From positions 1-41,889 of the forward strand of contig JAFRPC010000006.1 of assembly GCA_017429325.1 (NCBI GenBank): a stretch of 41,889 nt of DNA, written 5' to 3'. This DNA is from Oscillospiraceae bacterium. Its GTDB lineage: Bacteria; Bacillota; Clostridia; Oscillospirales; Oscillospiraceae. Numbering within the stretch: the stretch's first letter is position 1; each line of letters starts with the position of its first letter. Made by a program: the position numbers and the translations under genes. Shown piece after piece: positions 724-41,767 of the stretch. Under the pieces are notes generated by a model, which saw only the letters and a program-made list of their open reading frames with translations, did no database searches and was not told where the DNA came from.

Positions 724-2067
724 CTATCCCTGTTGCCTGTTGCCCGTTGCCTGTTGCCTCTCATTATCCAGAAAGACCTTCGGCATGGCGTACTCCGCCA
801 GCTCACGGACCACGGCGTCCAGGTCGATGGTGGGCCATTTCCCGGCGGCGTAGAGGATCTTGCCGCGGACCATGGTCATGACCACATCATGCCCGGAGGC
901 GGCATAGCAGAGATGGGAGAGGACATCGTGGCAGGGCATGAGGTGGGGCGCTGTGAAATCCAGCAGGATCAGGTCCGCGTCCATGCCGAGCTTCAGCATC
1001 CCGCACTCCCGCTCCCGGCCCTGGGCGCGGGCGCCGCAGACCGTGGCCATCATCAGCGCCGCCTGGGGCGGCAGGGCGGTGGCGTCGGCATGGAGGGACT
1101 TCGCCAGCAGGGAGGCGGCCTTGATCTCCTCAAAGAGGTCCAGGTTGTTGTTGGAGGCAGCGCCGTCGGTGCCCAGCGCCACGTTCATCCCGGCCTTGAC
1201 CATGGCGAGCACGTCCGCCCGGCCGGAGGCCAGCTTCAGATTCGACACGGGGCAGTGGACCGCTGTTACCTTCCGACGGGCCAGCAGGGCCATATCCTCG
1301 GGCTCCAGCCAGACGCAGTGGGCGGCGGCGGTCCTGGTCTCGAAGACGTGGTGGCAGTCCAGGAGCTGAGCAGGCGTCAGCCCGTACTTCTCCTTGCATT
1401 CCTCGTGCTCCTTTTGGGTCTCGGAGAGGTGGATCTGCATCCCCAGGCCTTCGTTGCAGGCATACTCCCCCAGGGCCTCCCAGAGATGGTAGTTGGAGCT
1501 GTACTCGGCGTGGACCGAGGCCTCGGCCCGGATGCGTCCGCCGTCATAGCCGTCCCACTTCTCCCGCAGCTCCCGGAGCTCCACGCAGGCGGGGTAGGTC
1601 TCGAAGTCGAAGTCCTCGGACCAGAGGGTGATGCCCCGGCTGATATTGGCCTTGATGCCGCTCTCGGCCACGGCCTCGGCAATGGCGCCGGTGTGGTCGT
1701 ACATCTCCGAGACCGAGGTGGTGCCGAAGCGCAGGCATTCGGCCAGGGCGAGCAGGGTCGCGGCCTTCACGGCCCGGTCGTCCAGCCTGGCCTCCCGGGG
1801 AAAGATGTCCTCGAAGAGCCAGGTGTGCAGGTCGTGGCCGTCCCCGTAGCCCCGAAGCAGGCTCATGGGCAGGTGGGTGTGGCAGTTGATGAGACCCGGC
1901 ATCAGGACCATGCCCTCGCCGTTGATGATTTGTTGGGGCTTATCCTTCGGGGCCGTCTTCCCGATGTAGGAGATCTTTCCGTCGGTGACGCCCAAAAAGG
2001 CGGCATACCAGACGTGCATCGCCTCGTCCATGGTGACGAGGGTGACGTTTGAGAATAAGGTGTCCAT
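724..2067 (-). CDS. Amidohydrolase, MtaD / S-adenosylhomocysteine deaminase family
   Basis: The 447-residue protein belongs to the metal-dependent amidohydrolases of the methylthioadenosine / S-adenosylhomocysteine deaminase and TrzA/AtzB group, which remove amino groups from purine nucleoside derivatives. The metal-binding pair is in INCHTHLPM (H63, H65). Further ligand motifs are QIHLSET, VHCPVSNLKL and LGTDGAASNN. A GAGGT ribosome binding site overlaps the stop codon of the kinase gene just upstream (4-bp gap), so the two are probably translated together. The last dozen residues, rich in Q, N, R and T, and the stop codon are supplied by a TTGCCTG heptamer array (729-759), so the natural C-terminus has been replaced or extended by repeat DNA. 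The exact substrate cannot be read from sequence. Confidence 0.85.
   Translation of the reverse strand: MDTLFSNVTLVTMDEAMHVWYAAFLGVTDGKISYIGKTAPKDKPQQIINGEGMVLMPGLINCHTHLPMSLLRGYGDGHDLHTWLFEDIFPREARLDDRAVKAATLLALAECLRFGTTSVSEMYDHTGAIAEAVAESGIKANISRGITLWSEDFDFETYPACVELRELREKWDGYDGGRIRAEASVHAEYSSNYHLWEALGEYACNEGLGMQIHLSETQKEHEECKEKYGLTPAQLLDCHHVFETRTAAAHCVWLEPEDMALLARRKVTAVHCPVSNLKLASGRADVLAMVKAGMNVALGTDGAASNNNLDLFEEIKAASLLAKSLHADATALPPQAALMMATVCGARAQGRERECGMLKLGMDADLILLDFTAPHLMPCHDVLSHLCYAASGHDVVMTMVRGKILYAAGKWPTIDLDAVVRELAEYAMPKVFLDNERQQATGNRQQG
729..759. repeat. TTGCCTG heptamer array inside amidohydrolase 3' end
   Basis: About four units of the 7-bp sequence TTGCCTG, one with a substitution (TTGCCCG). 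The array is read as coding sequence at the end of the amidohydrolase and supplies its stop codon. The same heptamer occurs at 26616-26647 and 31245-31275. Confidence 0.85.
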
Positions 2068-22716: not shown

Positions 22717-22771
22717 AATACCCGTGGGGCCGTCCGTTTCGCAGAAACGGACGGCCCCACGGGTATTTTGT
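22717..22771. terminator. Perfect 24-bp hairpin terminator
   Basis: Left arm 22717-22740, three-base loop, right arm 22744-22767, all 24 pairs matching, followed by TTTTG on the plus strand. It ends the pseudouridine synthase mRNA and probably also shields it from the convergent mrdA transcript. A smaller hairpin, TGCCGC-TGC-GCGGCA with TTTTA, follows at 22771-22785. Confidence 0.93.
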
Positions 22772-25435: not shown

Positions 25436-26266
25436 TTACTGATTCTCGTACTCCGTAATGATGAACACCTGTTCGAGATTGTCCAGGTCCGCGGCGGGGC
25501 GGAGCAGGGCGTATTTCGCCACGCCGGTCTGGTCGAAGTCCGCGTCGGTGATATAGCCGATGATGAGGCCCCGGGGATAGACCGTGGAGCCCGTGGTCAG
25601 CACCTGGTCATTGTTGCGCAACACGGAATCCGTGGGCAGGTAGTTCATCCGCAGCAGGCCCTGAGAGCCCGTGGCGAGGGCTCCCTCCACCACGCCGTTG
25701 TAACCCGTGGAGGCCACCGTGGCGGAGATGCCCAGGGCGGAGTCCAGCACCGTCGTCACCGTGGCCCAGTTGGGTCCGGCGGCGGTGACGAGGCCCACCA
25801 CCTGTCCGTATTCGGTAATGGCCACCAGCCCCTCATGGATGCCGGAGTTGGTGCCCTTGGCGATGGTAAAGGCGCTCTTCCAGCTGCTGTCCACCCAGGA
25901 GATGATGTAGGCCGAGGCCAGCTTGTAGTCCTCGTGCTCCTCGGTGAGCCCCAAAAGCTGATGCAGGCGCTCGTTCTCCCGCTGGAGGGAGTCCGCGCTG
26001 CGCACGTCCTCCTCCATAGCGATGATCCTGGCCTTCAGGGCCTCGTTCTCCGCCTGTAGGGATTCAAATTTGAACACATAGTCGTAGTAGCGCTCCGTCT
26101 GGCGCACCAGGGCGCTGGAGGCGGAGCGGAAGGGCGTCAGCACCGTCTGGACGAGGTTCTCCCCCGGATGGGCGGCGTTCACCGCGGCCACGATGGTGAC
26201 AAGGCCCGCCAGCAGCACCGCTATGACGATGAGCCACTTGGTTTTCGCGGACAGATGCTTTTTCAT
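25436..26266 (-). CDS. mreC: Rod-shape protein MreC
   Basis: The 276-residue protein has a membrane helix at about 10-30, a coiled coil at about 65-105 (SLQAENEALKARIIAMEE) and two small beta domains, the fold of MreC. It sits outside the membrane, binds PBP2 and forms a scaffold for cell-wall elongation. The pattern ITEYGQVVGLV, TVLDSALGISA and LPTDSVLRNNDQVLT matches the family. A GGAGAAGGA site precedes the ATG. It follows maf, the usual order in Firmicutes. mreB itself is not in this window. Confidence 0.95.
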   Translation of the reverse strand: MKKHLSAKTKWLIVIAVLLAGLVTIVAAVNAAHPGENLVQTVLTPFRSASSALVRQTERYYDYVFKFESLQAENEALKARIIAMEEDVRSADSLQRENERLHQLLGLTEEHEDYKLASAYIISWVDSSWKSAFTIAKGTNSGIHEGLVAITEYGQVVGLVTAAGPNWATVTTVLDSALGISATVASTGYNGVVEGALATGSQGLLRMNYLPTDSVLRNNDQVLTTGSTVYPRGLIIGYITDADFDQTGVAKYALLRPAADLDNLEQVFIITEYENQ

Positions 26267-26312: not shown

Positions 26313-27038
26313 TCAGGCCTCCCGCATGACCAGGGGGTCGATGCCGTATTGCTTCAGCGCCTGGGCCAGACGGCAGACGGGCAGGCCCATCACCGTGAAA
26401 TAGTCGCCGTGGATGGACTCCACCAGCATAGCGCCCAGGCCCTGGATGCCGTAGGCTCCGGCCTTGTCCATGGGCTCTCCGGTGGCGACGTAGGCGGCGA
26501 TCTCCGCCTCGGTCAGCTCCCGGAATCTCACGATCGTTTTTTCACAGTGCGTAAACGCCCCGATCCTGTCGTCCTGAGCGGAGCGCAGCGGCGTCGAAGG
26601 ACCCGTTCCCCCGTCCCCTGTTGCCTGTTGCCTGTTCCCTGTTGCCTCGACGGGCAGCAGCGTGAAGGCTGTGTACACCTCGTGCTCCCGGCCGGAGAGG
26701 GTGCGCAGCATAGCCCGGGCCTCGTTCTCGTCATGAGGCTTGCCCAGGATCCGCCCGTCCAGCACCACGATGGTGTCGGCTGTGAGGATCAGAGCTGCGT
26801 TCTCGTCGAAGGCCCCCTCATCCGCCCCAGTGTGCGCACTGGGACACCTTCCCCCCAGGGGGAAGGCTTTTGCCACGGCAAACGCCTTTTCCCGGCAGAT
26901 GCGGCGGACGGAGGCCTCGGGGTCCTCGGTCTCAAATTTCGTTTCGTCGATGTCGGCGGTCAGGACCCGGAAACGCAGGCCCATCCGCTCCAGCAGCTCC
27001 CGCCGCCGCGGCGACTGAGATCCTAAAATCAATTCCAT
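26313..27038 (-). CDS. maf: Maf-family nucleotide pyrophosphatase with two repeat insertions
   Basis: The core is Maf, which hydrolyses non-canonical NTPs (dTTP/UTP and modified forms) and may slow septation. Conserved blocks are present: LILGSQSPRRRELLERMG, TADTIVVLDGRILGKP, MLRTLSGREHEVYTAF, FRELTEAEIAAYV, DKAGAYGIQG and SIHGDYFTVMGLP. At 241 residues it is about 40-50 longer than the family norm. The excess is in two places. One, about 26815-26868, between the KAFAVAKAF and LTADT blocks, is a copy of the CCCAGTGCGCACACTGGG element. The other, about 26556-26650, between the AFTLLPVEA and VRFREL blocks, carries a TTGCCTG heptamer array and a CGTCCTGAGCGGAGCG-type element. Both keep the frame. 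No ribosome binding site is clear before the ATG, which lies next to a TACTTCT array. Confidence 0.88.
   Translation of the reverse strand: MELILGSQSPRRRELLERMGLRFRVLTADIDETKFETEDPEASVRRICREKAFAVAKAFPLGGRCPSAHTGADEGAFDENAALILTADTIVVLDGRILGKPHDENEARAMLRTLSGREHEVYTAFTLLPVEATGNRQQATGDGGTGPSTPLRSAQDDRIGAFTHCEKTIVRFRELTEAEIAAYVATGEPMDKAGAYGIQGLGAMLVESIHGDYFTVMGLPVCRLAQALKQYGIDPLVMREA
26556..26650. repeat. Repeat insertion 2 within maf (heptamer array plus dispersed element)
   Basis: Four to five TTGCCTG units (26616-26647, one variant unit) next to a sequence of the type TCGTCCTGAGCGGAGCGCAG at 26569-26588. In the maf frame it encodes ATGNRQQATGD followed by STPLRSAQDDR, neither of which belongs to Maf. 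Confidence 0.8.
26815..26868. repeat. Repeat insertion 1 within maf (CCAGTGTGCGCACTGG element)
   Basis: The core CCCCAGTGTGCGCACTGGGA followed by CACCTTCCCCCCAGGGGGAAGG is the same style of element as at 35346-35547, where it is not coding. Here it adds about ten to fifteen residues to Maf. Confidence 0.75.
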
Positions 27039-27070
27039 ACTTTTTACTTCTTGCTTTTATTTCTTACTTC
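27039..27070. repeat. TACTTCT-type heptamer array
   Basis: Degenerate 7-bp units of TACTTCT/TGCTTTT between maf and the 46-bp tandem repeat. A second array of the same sequence is at 29680-29707. Confidence 0.65.
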
Positions 27071-27162
27071 TGACTGATCCCGTCAGGCGGGCCGTCCAGG
27101 GGCCGGCCCCTACAGCTGACTGATCCCGTCAGGCGGGCCGTCCAGGGGCCGGCCCCTACGGC
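27071..27162. repeat. 46-bp tandem duplication with a GTAGGGG palindrome
   Basis: Two 46-bp copies (27071-27116 and 27117-27162) differ at one or two bases. Each contains the palindrome CAGGGGCCGGCCCCTAC, whose complement GTAGGGGCCGGCCCCTG reappears at 37625-37641 between hrcA and grpE. It fills the space between the U32 and maf genes. Confidence 0.9.
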
Positions 27163-27166
27163 TCTC

Positions 27167-29251
27167 TTACTCAACGCCTCTGTAGTACAGCCCCCGGGTG
27201 CAGGCGCCCGGGTCGAAGACCGCGCCGCCCCGGAGGGCGTTCACCACAGCGTCCACCTCCATGGGGTTCTCAGTGGTGAACTGGACCCGCAGGGCCCAGA
27301 GGCCCAGGTTCCGCAGGTCGGGCTGCTTGTCCAGCAGATAGAGCTTTTTGCCGTTGTAGATCACGCTGCGGCAGCTGTCCTGCTCCCGCAGAACCCGGAA
27401 CTCCTCGCCCTTCCGGTCCACCAGCTTGGCGGGGCCGGAGCGGCAGGCGCAGCGGCCCGTGCGGTTCTTGATGACGCAGTTCTCCGTCAGCATCAGGGGC
27501 AGGCGGCCATAGGCCAGCAGCTCCGTGGGCAGGGGCTTGGACAGGTCCCGGATCCGGGGCAGGGTCAGCTCAAAGCTCACCGTGGCGCTCTCCAGGCCCA
27601 GGCCTCTGGCAACGCTCATCGCTCTGGAGTTGAAGAGGTTCAGCCCAAAGTCTCCGCAGACGGCGAAGCCCCGGGAGCGGGCCAGGGAGATGTGGCCCAG
27701 GTTGCCGCAGAGGGCCAGCCGAATGCCCAGGCCCCGGGCCAGGTCCAGGGTTTGCAGCACCCGCTCCGATTCGGCGTCGAAAATGACGCGGGGCAGGACC
27801 ACCGCCAGCTCCGTCTGCTCCGGGACCCGGCGGATCCAGTCGGTCTCCTGCCGGAGCATGGACAGGGGCACGTAGAGGCGGGCGGGCTTCATCGCCAGGA
27901 GCTTGGGCGTGAGCTGCTCCCGGCTCAGGATGCCCACGGTCCAGCGGGGCGGCTTGAGCGGCCCCGGATAGAGCTTGACGGCGGAGAAGGAGTTCAGCTC
28001 CCGCTCCGGCTGGCGGCCCCGGAGGGCCGTCAGATGGGCCAGCACCTCCCGGCGCATCGCGTTGATCGCTGCGGCGGAGAGGGTCAGGCCCGGCTCCACC
28101 GCGCTCTTGGTCTCCACGCAGCGATAGGGGGTGCCGCCGGTCTTGGACAGGCGCTCGGCCAGAGCCTCCTGGGTCAGGGCCCGGGCGCGGGCCTCCTGGG
28201 GCTGAGGCCCCTCGGTCTTGCAGAGGTTGCCCAGTTCGTCCTCCACCGCCAGCAGGGCGTTCTGCCGCCGGTTCAGGATCGCGTAAAAGCGCACAGGCAC
28301 CAGGGGGGCCTCGGCGTTCTCGTAGCCCGCCCGGGCTCTCGCCATCAGCTCCCGGTTCTCCCGCTCCTTCTGGCGGGTGCCGAACATCTCCGGGCCGATG
28401 CGGCCCGCGTAGTAGCCCTCGGTGAAGCCCTGCCGGGAGAAGACCTCCCGCAGGTCCCGCATATCCTCGGCGGAGACGGGGGCGCCGTCGATAGCGGCGC
28501 GGTAGAGCCGGGTCGCCACGGCCACGTACTCAGGCCGCTTCATCCGGCCCTCGATCTTCACGGAGGCCACGCCCAGGCGGCGCAGCTCCTCCATGTGGGA
28601 GATCAGGCAGTTATCCTTGAGGCTCAGGGGGTACTTGTCCTCATAGTGGCCGTAGCCGTAGGCCAGACGGCAAGGCTGGGCGCACTGGCCCCGGTTGCCG
28701 GAGCGGGTCCCCACCACGGCGGAGAACCAGCACTGGCCGGAATAGCACATGCAGAGGGCTCCGTGGACGAAGACCTCGATCTCAATGGGACTGTTGCGGC
28801 AGATATAGGCGATGTCGTCCCGGCTCAGCTCCCGGGCCAGCACCACCCGGCTCATGCCCATAGCGGCGGCCCGCAGCACCCCGTCCAGGGAGTGGATGGA
28901 CATCTGGGTGGAGGCGTGGATGGGGACCTCCGGAGCCATCTGCCGCAGCAGCGACACCAGGCCCAGGTCCTGGACGATAAAGGCGTCCACCCCGGCCCGC
29001 GCGGCGGCGGTGATGGTCTGGGCTGCCTGCTCCAGCTCCCGGTCCGTCACCAGGGTATTCAGGGTCAGGTGCACCTGGACGCCCCGGACGTGGCAGTAAC
29101 GCACGGCCTCCGGCAGCTCGTCCAAGGAGAAGTTCTTGGCGTTCTGTCGGGCGTTGAAGGGACCGGAACCTAAATATACGGCGTTGGCGCCGCTTTGGAC
29201 CGCCGCACGAAGGGCGTCCATGGAGCCGGCGGGGGCGAGCAATTCCAGCAT
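27167..29251 (-). CDS. U32-family peptidase / RNA hydroxylation-type protein with C-terminal extension
   Basis: The 694-residue protein starts MLELLAPAGSMDALRAAV, the U32 N-terminus, and contains the U32 signature EVFVHGALCMCYSGQC at 159-174 with C167, C169, C174, C190 and C194. Some U32 members (RlhA, TrhP) are now known to be needed for RNA hydroxylation and appear to use an iron-sulfur cluster on such cysteines; others were named collagenase-like peptidases. The two later blocks (about 380-500 and 570-680) fit the long clostridial forms with a DUF3656-type region. The function here is not certain; RNA modification is at least as likely as peptidase. A TGAGGTC site precedes the ATG. A TATAAT on the minus strand at 29293-29298 lacks a good -35. 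It heads the run to maf and mreCD. Confidence 0.9.
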   Translation of the reverse strand: MLELLAPAGSMDALRAAVQSGANAVYLGSGPFNARQNAKNFSLDELPEAVRYCHVRGVQVHLTLNTLVTDRELEQAAQTITAAARAGVDAFIVQDLGLVSLLRQMAPEVPIHASTQMSIHSLDGVLRAAAMGMSRVVLARELSRDDIAYICRNSPIEIEVFVHGALCMCYSGQCWFSAVVGTRSGNRGQCAQPCRLAYGYGHYEDKYPLSLKDNCLISHMEELRRLGVASVKIEGRMKRPEYVAVATRLYRAAIDGAPVSAEDMRDLREVFSRQGFTEGYYAGRIGPEMFGTRQKERENRELMARARAGYENAEAPLVPVRFYAILNRRQNALLAVEDELGNLCKTEGPQPQEARARALTQEALAERLSKTGGTPYRCVETKSAVEPGLTLSAAAINAMRREVLAHLTALRGRQPERELNSFSAVKLYPGPLKPPRWTVGILSREQLTPKLLAMKPARLYVPLSMLRQETDWIRRVPEQTELAVVLPRVIFDAESERVLQTLDLARGLGIRLALCGNLGHISLARSRGFAVCGDFGLNLFNSRAMSVARGLGLESATVSFELTLPRIRDLSKPLPTELLAYGRLPLMLTENCVIKNRTGRCACRSGPAKLVDRKGEEFRVLREQDSCRSVIYNGKKLYLLDKQPDLRNLGLWALRVQFTTENPMEVDAVVNALRGGAVFDPGACTRGLYYRGVE

Positions 29252-29713: not shown

Positions 29714-29827
29714 TGTTCAGTCGCCCGTAGGGGCCGATGCCTACATCGGCCCTACCTACCGATTTTTGCCTGCAAGCGAGGGCGGATGTGGGCATCCGCC
29801 CCTACGACGAAGGGGGCTACTGAATAG
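29714..29827. mobile_element. MITE-like palindromic element, copy 1
   Basis: A 114-bp element with imperfect ends TGTTCAGTCG and CTACTGAATA (inverted), containing GTAGGGGCCGATGCCTACAT and GGATGTGGGCATCCGCCCCT palindromic halves. It is about 90% the same as 41645-41757. It holds no gene and supplies the cca stop codon. Confidence 0.85.
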
Positions 29828-31286
29828 ATACCTTCTTCCTTCCGACTTCCCCCAGCAGCGCTTCCCGCTCGTTGGGGGCCCTGCCGTCCAGCACAGCCTC
29901 CAGCAGGGCGTTCAGGGTCCGCCCGAGCTCGGGGCCTCTGGGGATGCCCAGGGCCAGCAGGTCGTTTCCGTCGATGGCCAGGTCCTTCACGGTGAAGCAG
30001 GGCGGTTGGGACAGCAGCTCCCGGGCCAGGGCCTCCAGCCGGTCACAGGCGGCGGTCCGGCCCCGGTAGTCCGGGTGGTGGGCCAGGGCGTCGGCCCGCT
30101 TCAGGGCCAGGAGGCGGAAGAAGTCCTCCTCCCCCAGCTTCCCGATCAATTTCCGAATCGCCCGCTCGGGGCTGCCCTCCGGCGGGTCAATGGGATAGTC
30201 GTGGAGCTCCACCAGGGCCGCGATTCGGCGCACCGTGTCCTTGTCGAAGCGCAGCCGGGTGAGGACGGTCCGGGCCAGCTCGGCGCTGACCTTCGCGTGG
30301 CCATAGAAGTGGCCGCCCCCCGCCTCGTCGATGCGCAGGCAGGCGGGCTTGCCCGCGTCGTGGAGCAGGGCCGCCCAGCGCAGAAGCTTCTCCGGGGGCA
30401 CGGCCTCCACAGCGGCGGCGGAGTGGGTCAGCACGTCGTAGCAGTGGTATTTGCTCCGCTGGTCCAGCCCCGCCATGGGGTCCAGCTCCGGCAGCAACAC
30501 CGCCAGGATGGGCCAGTGCTCCGTCAGCACCCGACGCGCGTCGGGGCCGCAGAGGAGCTTCGTCAGCTCCGCGGCGACCCGCTCCCGGCTCACCAGCTCC
30601 AAAGTCTGCCGCAGCGCCAGAGCCGCGGCGGCGGTGTCGGCCTCCACGGAAAACCGAAGCTGGGCGGAAAAGCGCAGGGCCCGGAGGATGCGCAGAGCGT
30701 CCTCGTCAAAGCGCCGCGCCGGATCTCCCACGCAGCGGATCACCCCGGCCTCCAGATCCGCCCGCCCGCCGAAGGGGTCAACGATCCCCTCCTCAGGATC
30801 CCACGCCATTGCGTTGATCGTAAAATCCCTTCGGGCCAGGTCCTCCTCCAGGGAGGAGGTAAAGGCCACGGCGTCGGGGTGCCGGTGGTCGGCGTAGCCC
30901 GCCTCGGTGCGGAAGGTGGTGATCTCCAGGGACAGGCTCGTCAGATTTTTGTCCTTGCGAGACCAGTGCTCACACTGGTCGTGGCAATCCGTTCTCCCCA
31001 GCAGGACCGTCACGGTCCCGTGCTTCAGCCCCGTCTCAATGACGCGCTCCCCGGCGAAGACCGCCTTCACCTGCTCCGGCAGGGCGGCGGTGGCAATGTC
31101 CCAGTCCCCGGGCTCCCGGCCCAGCAGCGCGTCCCGGACACAGCCGCCCACCAGGTAGGCCTCGTAACCTGCCGCCCACAGCCGCCGCAGAGCCTCCAAA
31201 GCAGCGGACGGCACCGTGGCACACAGATGTTCCCAGCTGCCGTCCCCTGTTGCCTGTTGCCTGTTGCCTGTTGCCCGGCCCATCAT
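29817..31286 (-). CDS. cca: CCA tRNA nucleotidyltransferase
   Basis: The 489-residue class II nucleotidyltransferase adds or repairs the CCA end of tRNA. The head has YLVGGCVRDALLGREPGDWD, with the DWD metal residues; then FTINAMAWDPEEGIVDPFGG and RIRRALRF-like ILRALRFSAQ. An HD-type domain (ALLHDAGKP, VSAELARTVLTRL) follows, as in clostridial long forms. The ATG overlaps the upstream gene by four bases (ATGA), supporting 31286. The first 15-20 residues come from a TTGCCTG array, and the last codons and stop from the MITE-like repeat. A start further in would be weak: only a GTG with no ribosome binding site. Neither end is natural family sequence, but all catalytic parts are intact. Confidence 0.92.
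   Translation of the reverse strand: MMGRATGNRQQATGDGSWEHLCATVPSAALEALRRLWAAGYEAYLVGGCVRDALLGREPGDWDIATAALPEQVKAVFAGERVIETGLKHGTVTVLLGRTDCHDQCEHWSRKDKNLTSLSLEITTFRTEAGYADHRHPDAVAFTSSLEEDLARRDFTINAMAWDPEEGIVDPFGGRADLEAGVIRCVGDPARRFDEDALRILRALRFSAQLRFSVEADTAAAALALRQTLELVSRERVAAELTKLLCGPDARRVLTEHWPILAVLLPELDPMAGLDQRSKYHCYDVLTHSAAAVEAVPPEKLLRWAALLHDAGKPACLRIDEAGGGHFYGHAKVSAELARTVLTRLRFDKDTVRRIAALVELHDYPIDPPEGSPERAIRKLIGKLGEEDFFRLLALKRADALAHHPDYRGRTAACDRLEALARELLSQPPCFTVKDLAIDGNDLLALGIPRGPELGRTLNALLEAVLDGRAPNEREALLGEVGRKKVSIQ
31245..31275. repeat. TTGCCTG heptamer array at cca 5' end
   Basis: About four units of TTGCCTG, coding in the cca N-terminus (ATGNRQQATGD). Loss or gain of one unit would shift the frame. 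Confidence 0.85.
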
Positions 31287-35345: not shown

Positions 35346-35547
35346 ACCTCCCCTGCTCGCAGGGGAGGTGCCCCAGTGCGCACACTGGGGCGGAGGGGTT
35401 CCTTCCGGGTACGCACACGGTCCGAGGGAGGCCCAGTGCGCACACTGGGGCGGAGGGGTTGTAGCGTTTTTGTAATGCCTCTGTAGACGGAACGACCCCT
35501 CCACCGGCCTTGAGGCCGGTCCCCCTCCCCTGCAAGCAGGGGAGGTT
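35346..35547. repeat. Compound palindromic repeat block between thiT and the DUF3810 gene
   Basis: The block is bounded by two hairpins, CCTCCCCTGCTCGCAGGGGAGG (35346) and CCTCCCCTGCAAGCAGGGGAGG (35526-35547), and contains two copies of CCCAGTGCGCACACTGGGGC followed by GGAGGGGTT, plus the hairpin ACCGGCCTTGAGGCCGGT (35511-35528). The related element in maf suggests a family spread through the genome. No gene is seen. Confidence 0.85.
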
Positions 35548-36217: not shown

Positions 36218-36227
36218 CATCCAAAGG

Positions 36228-36325
36228 AATCGCACCCTTTTCCTACGACGGCATGATCCGTATCAGGTTCACGGGTGAGGGCGCCTTTTCGCCCACTCTC
36301 AGCCGGAACGGTCCGGCCCCCCGAA
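36228..36325 (-). promoter_or_regulatory. TPP (THI-box) riboswitch before thiT
   Basis: The minus strand shows the conserved THI-box core in order: CTGAGAGTGG, CACCCGTGAACCTGAT, ACGGATCATGCCGT and CGTAGGAAAAGGG. When TPP is bound the downstream terminator should form and thiT expression stop. Confidence 0.97.
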
Positions 36326-36335
36326 GAGCGATTCT

Positions 36336-38336: not shown

Positions 38337-38406
38337 CCAGCCCCCAGCCCCTAGCACCTAGCCCCTAGCACCTAGCCCCTAGCACCTAGCCCCTAGCACC
38401 TAGCAA
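38337..38406. repeat. AGCMCCT heptamer array between grpE and dnaK
   Basis: About nine 7-bp units alternating AGCCCCT and AGCACCT, starting just after the grpE stop and ending 41 bp before the dnaK start. It is a third heptamer sequence in this window. Confidence 0.9.
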
Positions 38407-41644: not shown

Positions 41645-41757
41645 TGTTCAGTCGTCGTAGGGGCCGATGCCTACATCGGCCCTTCCTACCGGTTTTTGGC
41701 CGCAAACGAGGGCGGATGTGGGCATCCGCCCCTACGAAGAAGGGGGCGACTGAATAG
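41645..41757. mobile_element. MITE-like palindromic element, copy 2
   Basis: A 113-bp near-copy of 29714-29827 with ends TGTTCAGTCG and CGACTGAATA that are inverted repeats. It lies directly before the IS110 element. Confidence 0.85.
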
Positions 41758-41767
41758 ACAATATGAA

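Follow-up and report, generated by a model that had tools for sequence, protein, structure and literature searches.

How does a conserved enzyme come to contain two stretches of residues that have no place in its family? The maf gene raises this question in a contig of Oscillospiraceae bacterium (assembly GCA_017429325.1, contig JAFRPC010000006.1, positions 1 to 41,889; this whole stretch is hereafter called the window), where it lies on the minus strand at 26313-27038 and where a sequence-only reading had seen repeats inserted without loss of frame. In our analysis it is very probable that the extra segments are in-frame insertions of small, non-autonomous dispersed repeats, translated in a working enzyme, and that the same holds across a clade of the genus. 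Sequence comparison demonstrates the dispersal of the repeats, their presence or absence at orthologous sites, open frames, modules shared across genes, and a bias of both frame and orientation.

The product of maf is 241 amino acids (aa) long and was identified from the open reading frame (ORF) list, Pfam and NCBIfam. Its Pfam Maf match covers residues 2-230 (E 1.3e-63), and this domain together with the conserved motifs places it among the Maf nucleotide pyrophosphatases. Compared with B. subtilis Maf (1ex2), it has extra residues at approximately 58-80 (site 1) and 128-162 (site 2), both skipped by solved Mafs and absent from all ten aligned Mafs of other genera, in line with the proposal that they are foreign to the family. 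Alignment gaps to the solved homologs predict a surface-loop position for both. Comparison of maf DNA with its own genome gave 63 matches, one being the gene itself; the other 62 all fall within query positions 255-347 or 478-568. The extra residues are thus encoded in repeat DNA.

Site 1 holds an element of 57 nt, or 19 codons, here called F1 (26814-26870, minus strand), which reads KAFPLGGRCPSAHTGADEG and contains two hairpins. This segment had been placed at 26815-26868 and tied to a dispersed element; the tie held, with two partial copies elsewhere in the window (35362-35394, 94%; 35424-35454, 90%), while the bounds were slightly too narrow. The extra loop of site 2 comprises 33 residues (26553-26651, minus strand) and is, as had been suggested, a heptamer array plus a second dispersed element: the array, F3 (26606-26649, minus strand; coding strand CAGGCAA), reads EATGNRQQATGDGG and adjoins F2 (26568-26604, minus strand), which reads GPSTPLRSAQDD. 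Three repeat families, not the two first counted, are present in Maf. By eye, close versions of the F2 peptide were recognised in the MiaB-like enzyme of one congener (G002; genomes are numbered in this form), in MutL of G003, G007 and G021, and in the Orn/Lys decarboxylase of G006.

All 30 aligned Mafs keep both conserved end motifs. The frame stays open over all 241 codons, both inserts included, and repeat-free relatives have shorter loops, which bears out the view that the inserts sit in frame between conserved blocks and leave the Maf motifs intact. Neither the same extra residues in repeat-free relatives nor a disrupted maf frame appeared, the frame having been checked in one assembly only. 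The alignment draws its 30 sequences from 51 genomes with a Maf match, 20 sequences belonging to the genus and ten to other genera; G017 (a match, no locus), G011 and G013 (no match) were left out. Among the genus sequences, site 2 has at least 20 aa in 6/20 and 5-14 aa in the rest, and site 1 has at least 20 aa in 6/20, 12-18 aa in 9/20 and 6 aa in 5/20; because of the 12-18 aa found in nine members, part of the site 1 extension may be something other than repeat. The contents vary: MQN-type peptides (heptamer AAAATGC) occur at Maf sites of G006, G007 and G016, ATGNRQQ in G000, G004 and G016, NSQFPIL (AATTCTC) in G016, CHLS (TGTCACC or TGTCACT) in G004, G016 and G021, RILRFAQND in G007, and the module VGSDPLIAPVIASGNDAAAARRQEASGDASLR in G004. 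Site 1 of G005 (KALPLWEKCPEGAEEG) resembles, by eye, a decayed F1 variant.

Repeat-filled loops in other conserved enzymes

Far from being peculiar to one gene, such insertions are seen genus-wide and in many conserved enzymes. The Maf loops, single sites of MnmG, TrmK, a MiaB-like enzyme and TruB, and the MutL linker carry different modules in different congeners and are short or empty in others. The MnmG loop has at least 20 aa in 6/19 species and 3-9 residues in the other 13 (G004, lacking the N-terminal half, was left out of the counts, as were the partial sequences of G012, G014 and G018); Aquifex MnmG (2zxh) has six residues where the MnmG of our own genome has 37. The TrmK loop reaches at least 20 aa in 7/22 species (partial G009 left out), and the MiaB-like loop measures 21-146 aa in 9/22 and 4-6 aa in 13 (G013, without an ortholog, left out). 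Among 19 aligned TruB sequences (partial G014 and the unmatched G000, G002 and G019 left out), the heptamer peptide ILNSQF is found in G006, G012 and G021 and the module VGSDPLIAP in G004 and G016. MutL was aligned without G011, G013, G014 and G018, which were partial, split, at a contig end or, in G018, in two frames.

Set against the Pfam matches of TrmK, MutL, MnmG and a GntR-aminotransferase regulator, repeats of the own genome fall within or between the matched regions, and in the MiaB-like enzyme they follow the radical SAM domain; a DpaA match is weak. In congeners, F1 is found inside or between the Pfam matches of a lipoate ligase, a PcrA-like helicase, GH53 and CoaE, and outside the matched domain in ComEC and a P-type ATPase. 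An Orn/Lys decarboxylase with F1 has its C-terminal match below the cut-off.

The filled state has changed repeatedly on a tree of MnmG, TrmK and Maf cores (1045 columns), which uses the same genes as the scored sites and so is not independent of them: the minimum is three changes for MnmG, three for TrmK, five for the MiaB-like enzyme and three for Maf site 2, with a total of at least 14. The MnmG site is empty in G008 and filled in its sister G007 (support 100), a difference that may reflect precise loss, replacement or repeated gain. As a separate observation, MnmG loop DNA runs counter to the tree: it is alike in G002 and G007 (loci L157 and L159), and a different version is common to G021 and G006, their closer relatives.

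Modules are also shared between genes. We compared 93 loops, each 24 nt or longer and drawn from five genes, counting matches to a different gene's loop at E 1e-4 or better. In nine repeat-rich species, picked after the loops and F1 counts had been seen, 48 of 56 loops share DNA across genes, and elsewhere 8 of 37 do so; the figure for random non-loop segments of the same genes is 4/4650.

These findings can be put together as follows. F1, with its two hairpins, F3, an array of near-constant length, and F2 would have landed in frame in two permissive loops of Maf and would be translated, in vivo too, as part of an enzyme that retains its activity. The repeats would be mainly intergenic, and a loop insertion would survive, nearly neutral, if it is in frame, free of stops and encodes a soluble peptide. 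A loop that holds a repeat could then receive further, nested ones, and copies could be swapped, perhaps by ectopic conversion, or lost; such nesting, swapping and loss would be why orthologous loops differ between species. The process appears to be shared throughout a clade within a single gut-dwelling genus of Oscillospiraceae.

Reading frame, sense and competing explanations

Both flanks of the loop lie in one ORF in 30/30 Mafs, 19/20 MnmG (the exception being G004), 22/22 TrmK and 19/19 TruB sequences and, by the same anchor-pattern check, in 20/22 MiaB-like and 18/19 MutL sequences. The three anchor misses (MiaB-like in G004 and G006, MutL in G017) each have a substituted anchor letter, with both flanks present in the alignment. 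F1 is stop-free in five of its six frames. Of 70 F1 copies of at least 38 nt, called genes contain 17: frame +0 accounts for 11 of these, antisense frames for six, and +1, the other stop-free sense frame, for none. With orthologs merged by eye, +0 is used at 9/15 gene sites (P 8e-4 for one in five equal open frames), or at 8/14 (P about 2e-3, by hand) once the chimeric locus L281 is removed, the gene-frame stretches having mostly been chosen from the best F1 DNA matches and their genes only roughly called. Within loops, F1 reads +0 in 17/20 matches, the GTAGGGGCG hairpin keeps one frame in 12/12, and the heptamer words GCAACAGGC (25/25) and ATGCAAAATG (22/22) are always sense, their antisense being stop-free and hydrophobic. 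Given the frame bias of F1 and the sense-only, hydrophilic heptamers, translation of the inserts and their filtering by selection are probable; the simplest reading of the bias is translation with purging of bad peptides.

Several points weigh against this account. Antisense F1 makes up 3/20 loop matches and 6/17 gene copies, and copying of whole modules from loop to loop could add to the frame bias. The loop match and pair counts contain many orthologous copies that are not independent, and treat the two Maf sites as different genes. The linker of MutL in G018 (L255), a species with few F1 copies, contains a frame change that is either a true break or an assembly error. No clear link was found between the repeats and repetitive extragenic palindrome (REP)-associated tyrosine transposases (RAYTs), Y1_Tnp being the sole transposase family searched. 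The main weakness is the fragmentation of the assemblies, with the own genome in 68 contigs and the other eight repeat-rich species in 110-300, and two contigs look chimeric or broken at repeats: L281, and G004 MnmG, which stops at one.

A more far-reaching idea, which we hold to be doubtful, is that the genus maintains a pool of in-frame loop cassettes, multi-family modules that spread by copying between proteins and are swapped at fixed sites via conserved arms. That such copying runs mostly in the same sense and frame is part of this idea and is, jointly with it, doubtful. If it were true, proteins would still be changing through linker insertion and swapping, and heptamer arrays would be frame-proof linkers. 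That the filled loops are adaptive, serving as functional linkers, interaction tags or a reservoir of variation, seems very unlikely: the same sites are indeed re-filled with different modules and the peptides are biased towards hydrophilic ones, but contents often differ between species, a sister may be empty (MnmG in G008 vs G007), and purifying selection against bad peptides accounts for the bias.

It is highly improbable that short-read assemblers produced the pattern by joining repeat-bearing contigs within genes. L281 (G004:C28:15800-17540), in which the N-terminal part of a carbohydrate kinase is joined to the C-terminal part of TruB exactly at F1 near a contig end, and the broken G004 MnmG are what such joining would look like. 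However, in Maf, MnmG, TrmK, MiaB-like and TruB sequences of all aligned species except G004 MnmG, the flanks belong to the same gene in the right order and one frame; loop contents are species-specific, and random joins would not preserve frame. Such repeats can nevertheless produce chimeric gene calls in metagenome assemblies. In another locus (L280, G006:C130:6000-9100), CoaE with a repeat-derived insert continues in frame, with no stop, into a downstream M18 aminopeptidase.

Mitochondrial byp elements are skipped by ribosome bypassing, and the inserts might likewise be missing from the mature protein, whether through bypassing, RNA splicing or removal as mini-inteins. The folding of F1 into two strong hairpins (z -3.3) would suit such a process, which is, however, hardly to be expected: it would not require an open frame, yet the loops are open in all aligned orthologs except G004 MnmG and are biased in frame and sense, and the segments look too short and too diverse for inteins. 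Barely conceivable, finally, is that the extra residues are old native loops merely resembling repeats, since the 12-18 aa at Maf site 1, several of them without evident repeats, stand against a site 1 loop whose DNA shares 98% identity over 58 nt with another species' TrmK loop and against the recurrence of F1 outside called genes.

The repeats across genomes and the window

We return to in-frame insertion of dispersed repeats and to their abundance. A sample of 361.9 kb of the own genome, window included, with genes roughly called by a home-made dicodon caller, contains 112 repeat places, 32 of them in called genes, including 17 (hand count) that belong to large repetitive proteins. Setting these aside leaves 95 places, of which 15 touch 11 of 270 called genes; with 85.6% of the sample called coding, the repeats are strongly depleted in genes, yet present there. 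When at most 40 candidates were scored per genome, F1 matches numbered at least 22-55 in the nine repeat-rich species and at least 0-23 in the remaining 14. F1 extends beyond the genus, because F1-like DNA was found in at least 13 of 150 family genomes, the own included (six candidates scored per genome). The exact F3 25-mer occurs 15 times in the own genome, with some overlaps; its absence from all 294 other genomes of an order sample that held no congener led us to reject a wide spread of F3.

A RAYT as mover of the repeats was also rejected, in a search limited to Y1_Tnp among transposases and reverse transcriptases: this family is patchy and almost missing from the own genome. Y1_Tnp exceeded the cut-off in 11 of 23 genomes, which are incomplete; the own genome has a partial match below it, and G002, G007 and G008, also incomplete, have none. 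Strong, nearly full-length Y1_Tnp transposases are encoded at L205 and L206 (G005:C9, G009:C148), in two congeners with few F1 copies.

Heptamers stand out among the tandem arrays. Period 7 accounts for 37 of 145 arrays in the own-genome sample, where period 6 occurs twice, and chance is excluded because 15 arrays, none of period 7, arose in an equally long Markov-1 simulation. It also accounts for 28/62 arrays in eight repeat-rich neighbourhoods (114.0 kb) and 8/43 in twelve others (188.5 kb); no array of period 8 occurs in any of the three sets. The arrays comprise many different heptamers with median lengths of 32, 32 and 32.5 nt in the three sets and a tail to 79 nt, and slippage alone would be expected to give a wider range. 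As 7 leaves a remainder of 1 on division by 3, such an array encodes one and the same set of seven residues whichever frame of a given strand is read.

Within the window, maf stands between mreC (25436-26266) and a U32-peptidase-like gene (27167-29251). Directly upstream of its start is a degenerate ACTTCTT-type array (27042-27069, strand unassigned), scored as a 13-nt period, and adjoining maf are two noncoding tandem copies of a 46-nt hairpin repeat (27065-27156, strand unassigned) that contains ...GGCCCCTAC, GTAG-type in reverse. The two partial F1-like copies (together 35362-35454, minus strand) lie ahead of a DUF3810 domain in what is probably 5' noncoding DNA. One F3 copy (31240-31275, minus strand), probably noncoding, is upstream of the poly(A)-polymerase and HD domains of a tRNA nucleotidyltransferase-like gene, and another (728-760, minus strand) is at the 3' end of an amidohydrolase ORF, whose C-terminus it may extend. 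An AGCCCCT/AGCACCT heptamer array of 66 nt (38339-38404) lies outside any ORF of 100 codons and could not sit in a gene, because its unit contains CTAG and every frame meets a stop in the seven-codon cycle. Other repeats are a 103-nt pair (29726-29828 and 41656-41758; 93% identical) with a GTAGGGGC-type hairpin, 2.5 near-perfect tandem copies of a 96-nt unit at the contig start (1-241), possibly an assembly-end artefact, and a perfect 24-nt inverted repeat with a 3-nt loop just 3' of the PBP2 gene (22717-22767), perhaps a terminator. At the gathering threshold, Rfam found no RNA family at the repeats, its sole match in the window being a thiamine pyrophosphate (TPP) riboswitch elsewhere (36223-36333, minus strand).

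Comparison with known systems

Rickettsia palindromic elements (RPEs) are approximately 150 bp long and known from intracellular Alphaproteobacteria; according to a review among the sources cited here, R. conorii has 44 integrations, nearly half of them in ORFs (PMC10969869, PMC2996958, PMC3733652). The likeness to RPEs that had been put forward stands for the mode of action, a dispersed element in frame within unrelated conserved ORFs, with TruB hit in both systems. As a sign of membership it is weaker: F1 is 57 nt with two separate hairpins rather than an approximately 150-bp palindrome, the heptamer arrays are not palindromic, several families are nested per site, and the host belongs to the Oscillospiraceae.

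Intragenic GTAG and CGTC REPs are short hairpin repeats in ORFs, often of DNA-repair or tRNA-modification genes, among them UvrD/Rep helicases and TruB; some clusters encode 43-82 aa, and two Xanthomonas recB genes carry REPs near the same site (PMC3733652). GTAG REPs are defined by a GTAG end beside a 5-13 bp stem and CGTC REPs by a CGTC end beside an 8-9 bp stem; the former are listed for Proteobacteria, Cyanobacteria, Chloroflexi and PVC and the latter for five phyla, with Bacillota in neither list of the accessible text (PMC3733652). Of our elements, which measure about 31-57 nt, F4 (one copy, from G006 MnmG) begins with GTAGG followed by a 7-bp stem, a GTAG-type end, and F2, which folds no better than shuffled sequence, carries CGTC at two bases from one of its ends. 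The GTAG end is absent from F1, F2 and F3; F1 has neither motif, and F3, which has no stable fold, has neither at its ends. The Bacillota host and the lack of a clear RAYT link in the Y1_Tnp search differ as well. Compared with miniature inverted-repeat transposable elements, which have terminal inverted repeats and target-site duplications, the hairpins of F1 are internal, and no such duplication was legible, the available empty sites belonging to diverged species.

Heptameric short tandemly repeated repetitive (STRR) sequences of Nostoc and Xanthomonas likewise consist of 7-nt units in rows scattered over the genome (PMC4692102, PMC2670836), and period 7 here is far above its neighbouring periods. 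GGGAATC-type repeats are intergenic in 89-93% of cases in two Xanthomonas and 68% in Anabaena (PMC4692102). The arrays described here differ in their many distinct heptamers, similar lengths and presence, in several cases, inside enzyme loops. Our search, which left most subscription literature outside, found no report of repeat-filled enzyme loops in Oscillospiraceae.

Small dispersed repeats nested in the heptamer arrays of Nostoc punctiforme were reportedly described by Elhai and colleagues in 2008. Our findings extend the known range of repeat insertion into protein-coding sequence to a gut-dwelling genus of Bacillota, and about 20 species provide a clear comparative record in which the same loops are found empty, filled or re-filled. 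The system makes testable where proteins tolerate insertion, whether solubility filters the inserts, how fast loops turn over, and how the near-constant array length originates. In-frame coding repeat insertion as such is already known from RPEs and intragenic REPs; set beside the accessible portions of those reports, the combination of a Bacillota host, several nested families with heptamer arrays among them, and different modules re-filling orthologous loops looks new.
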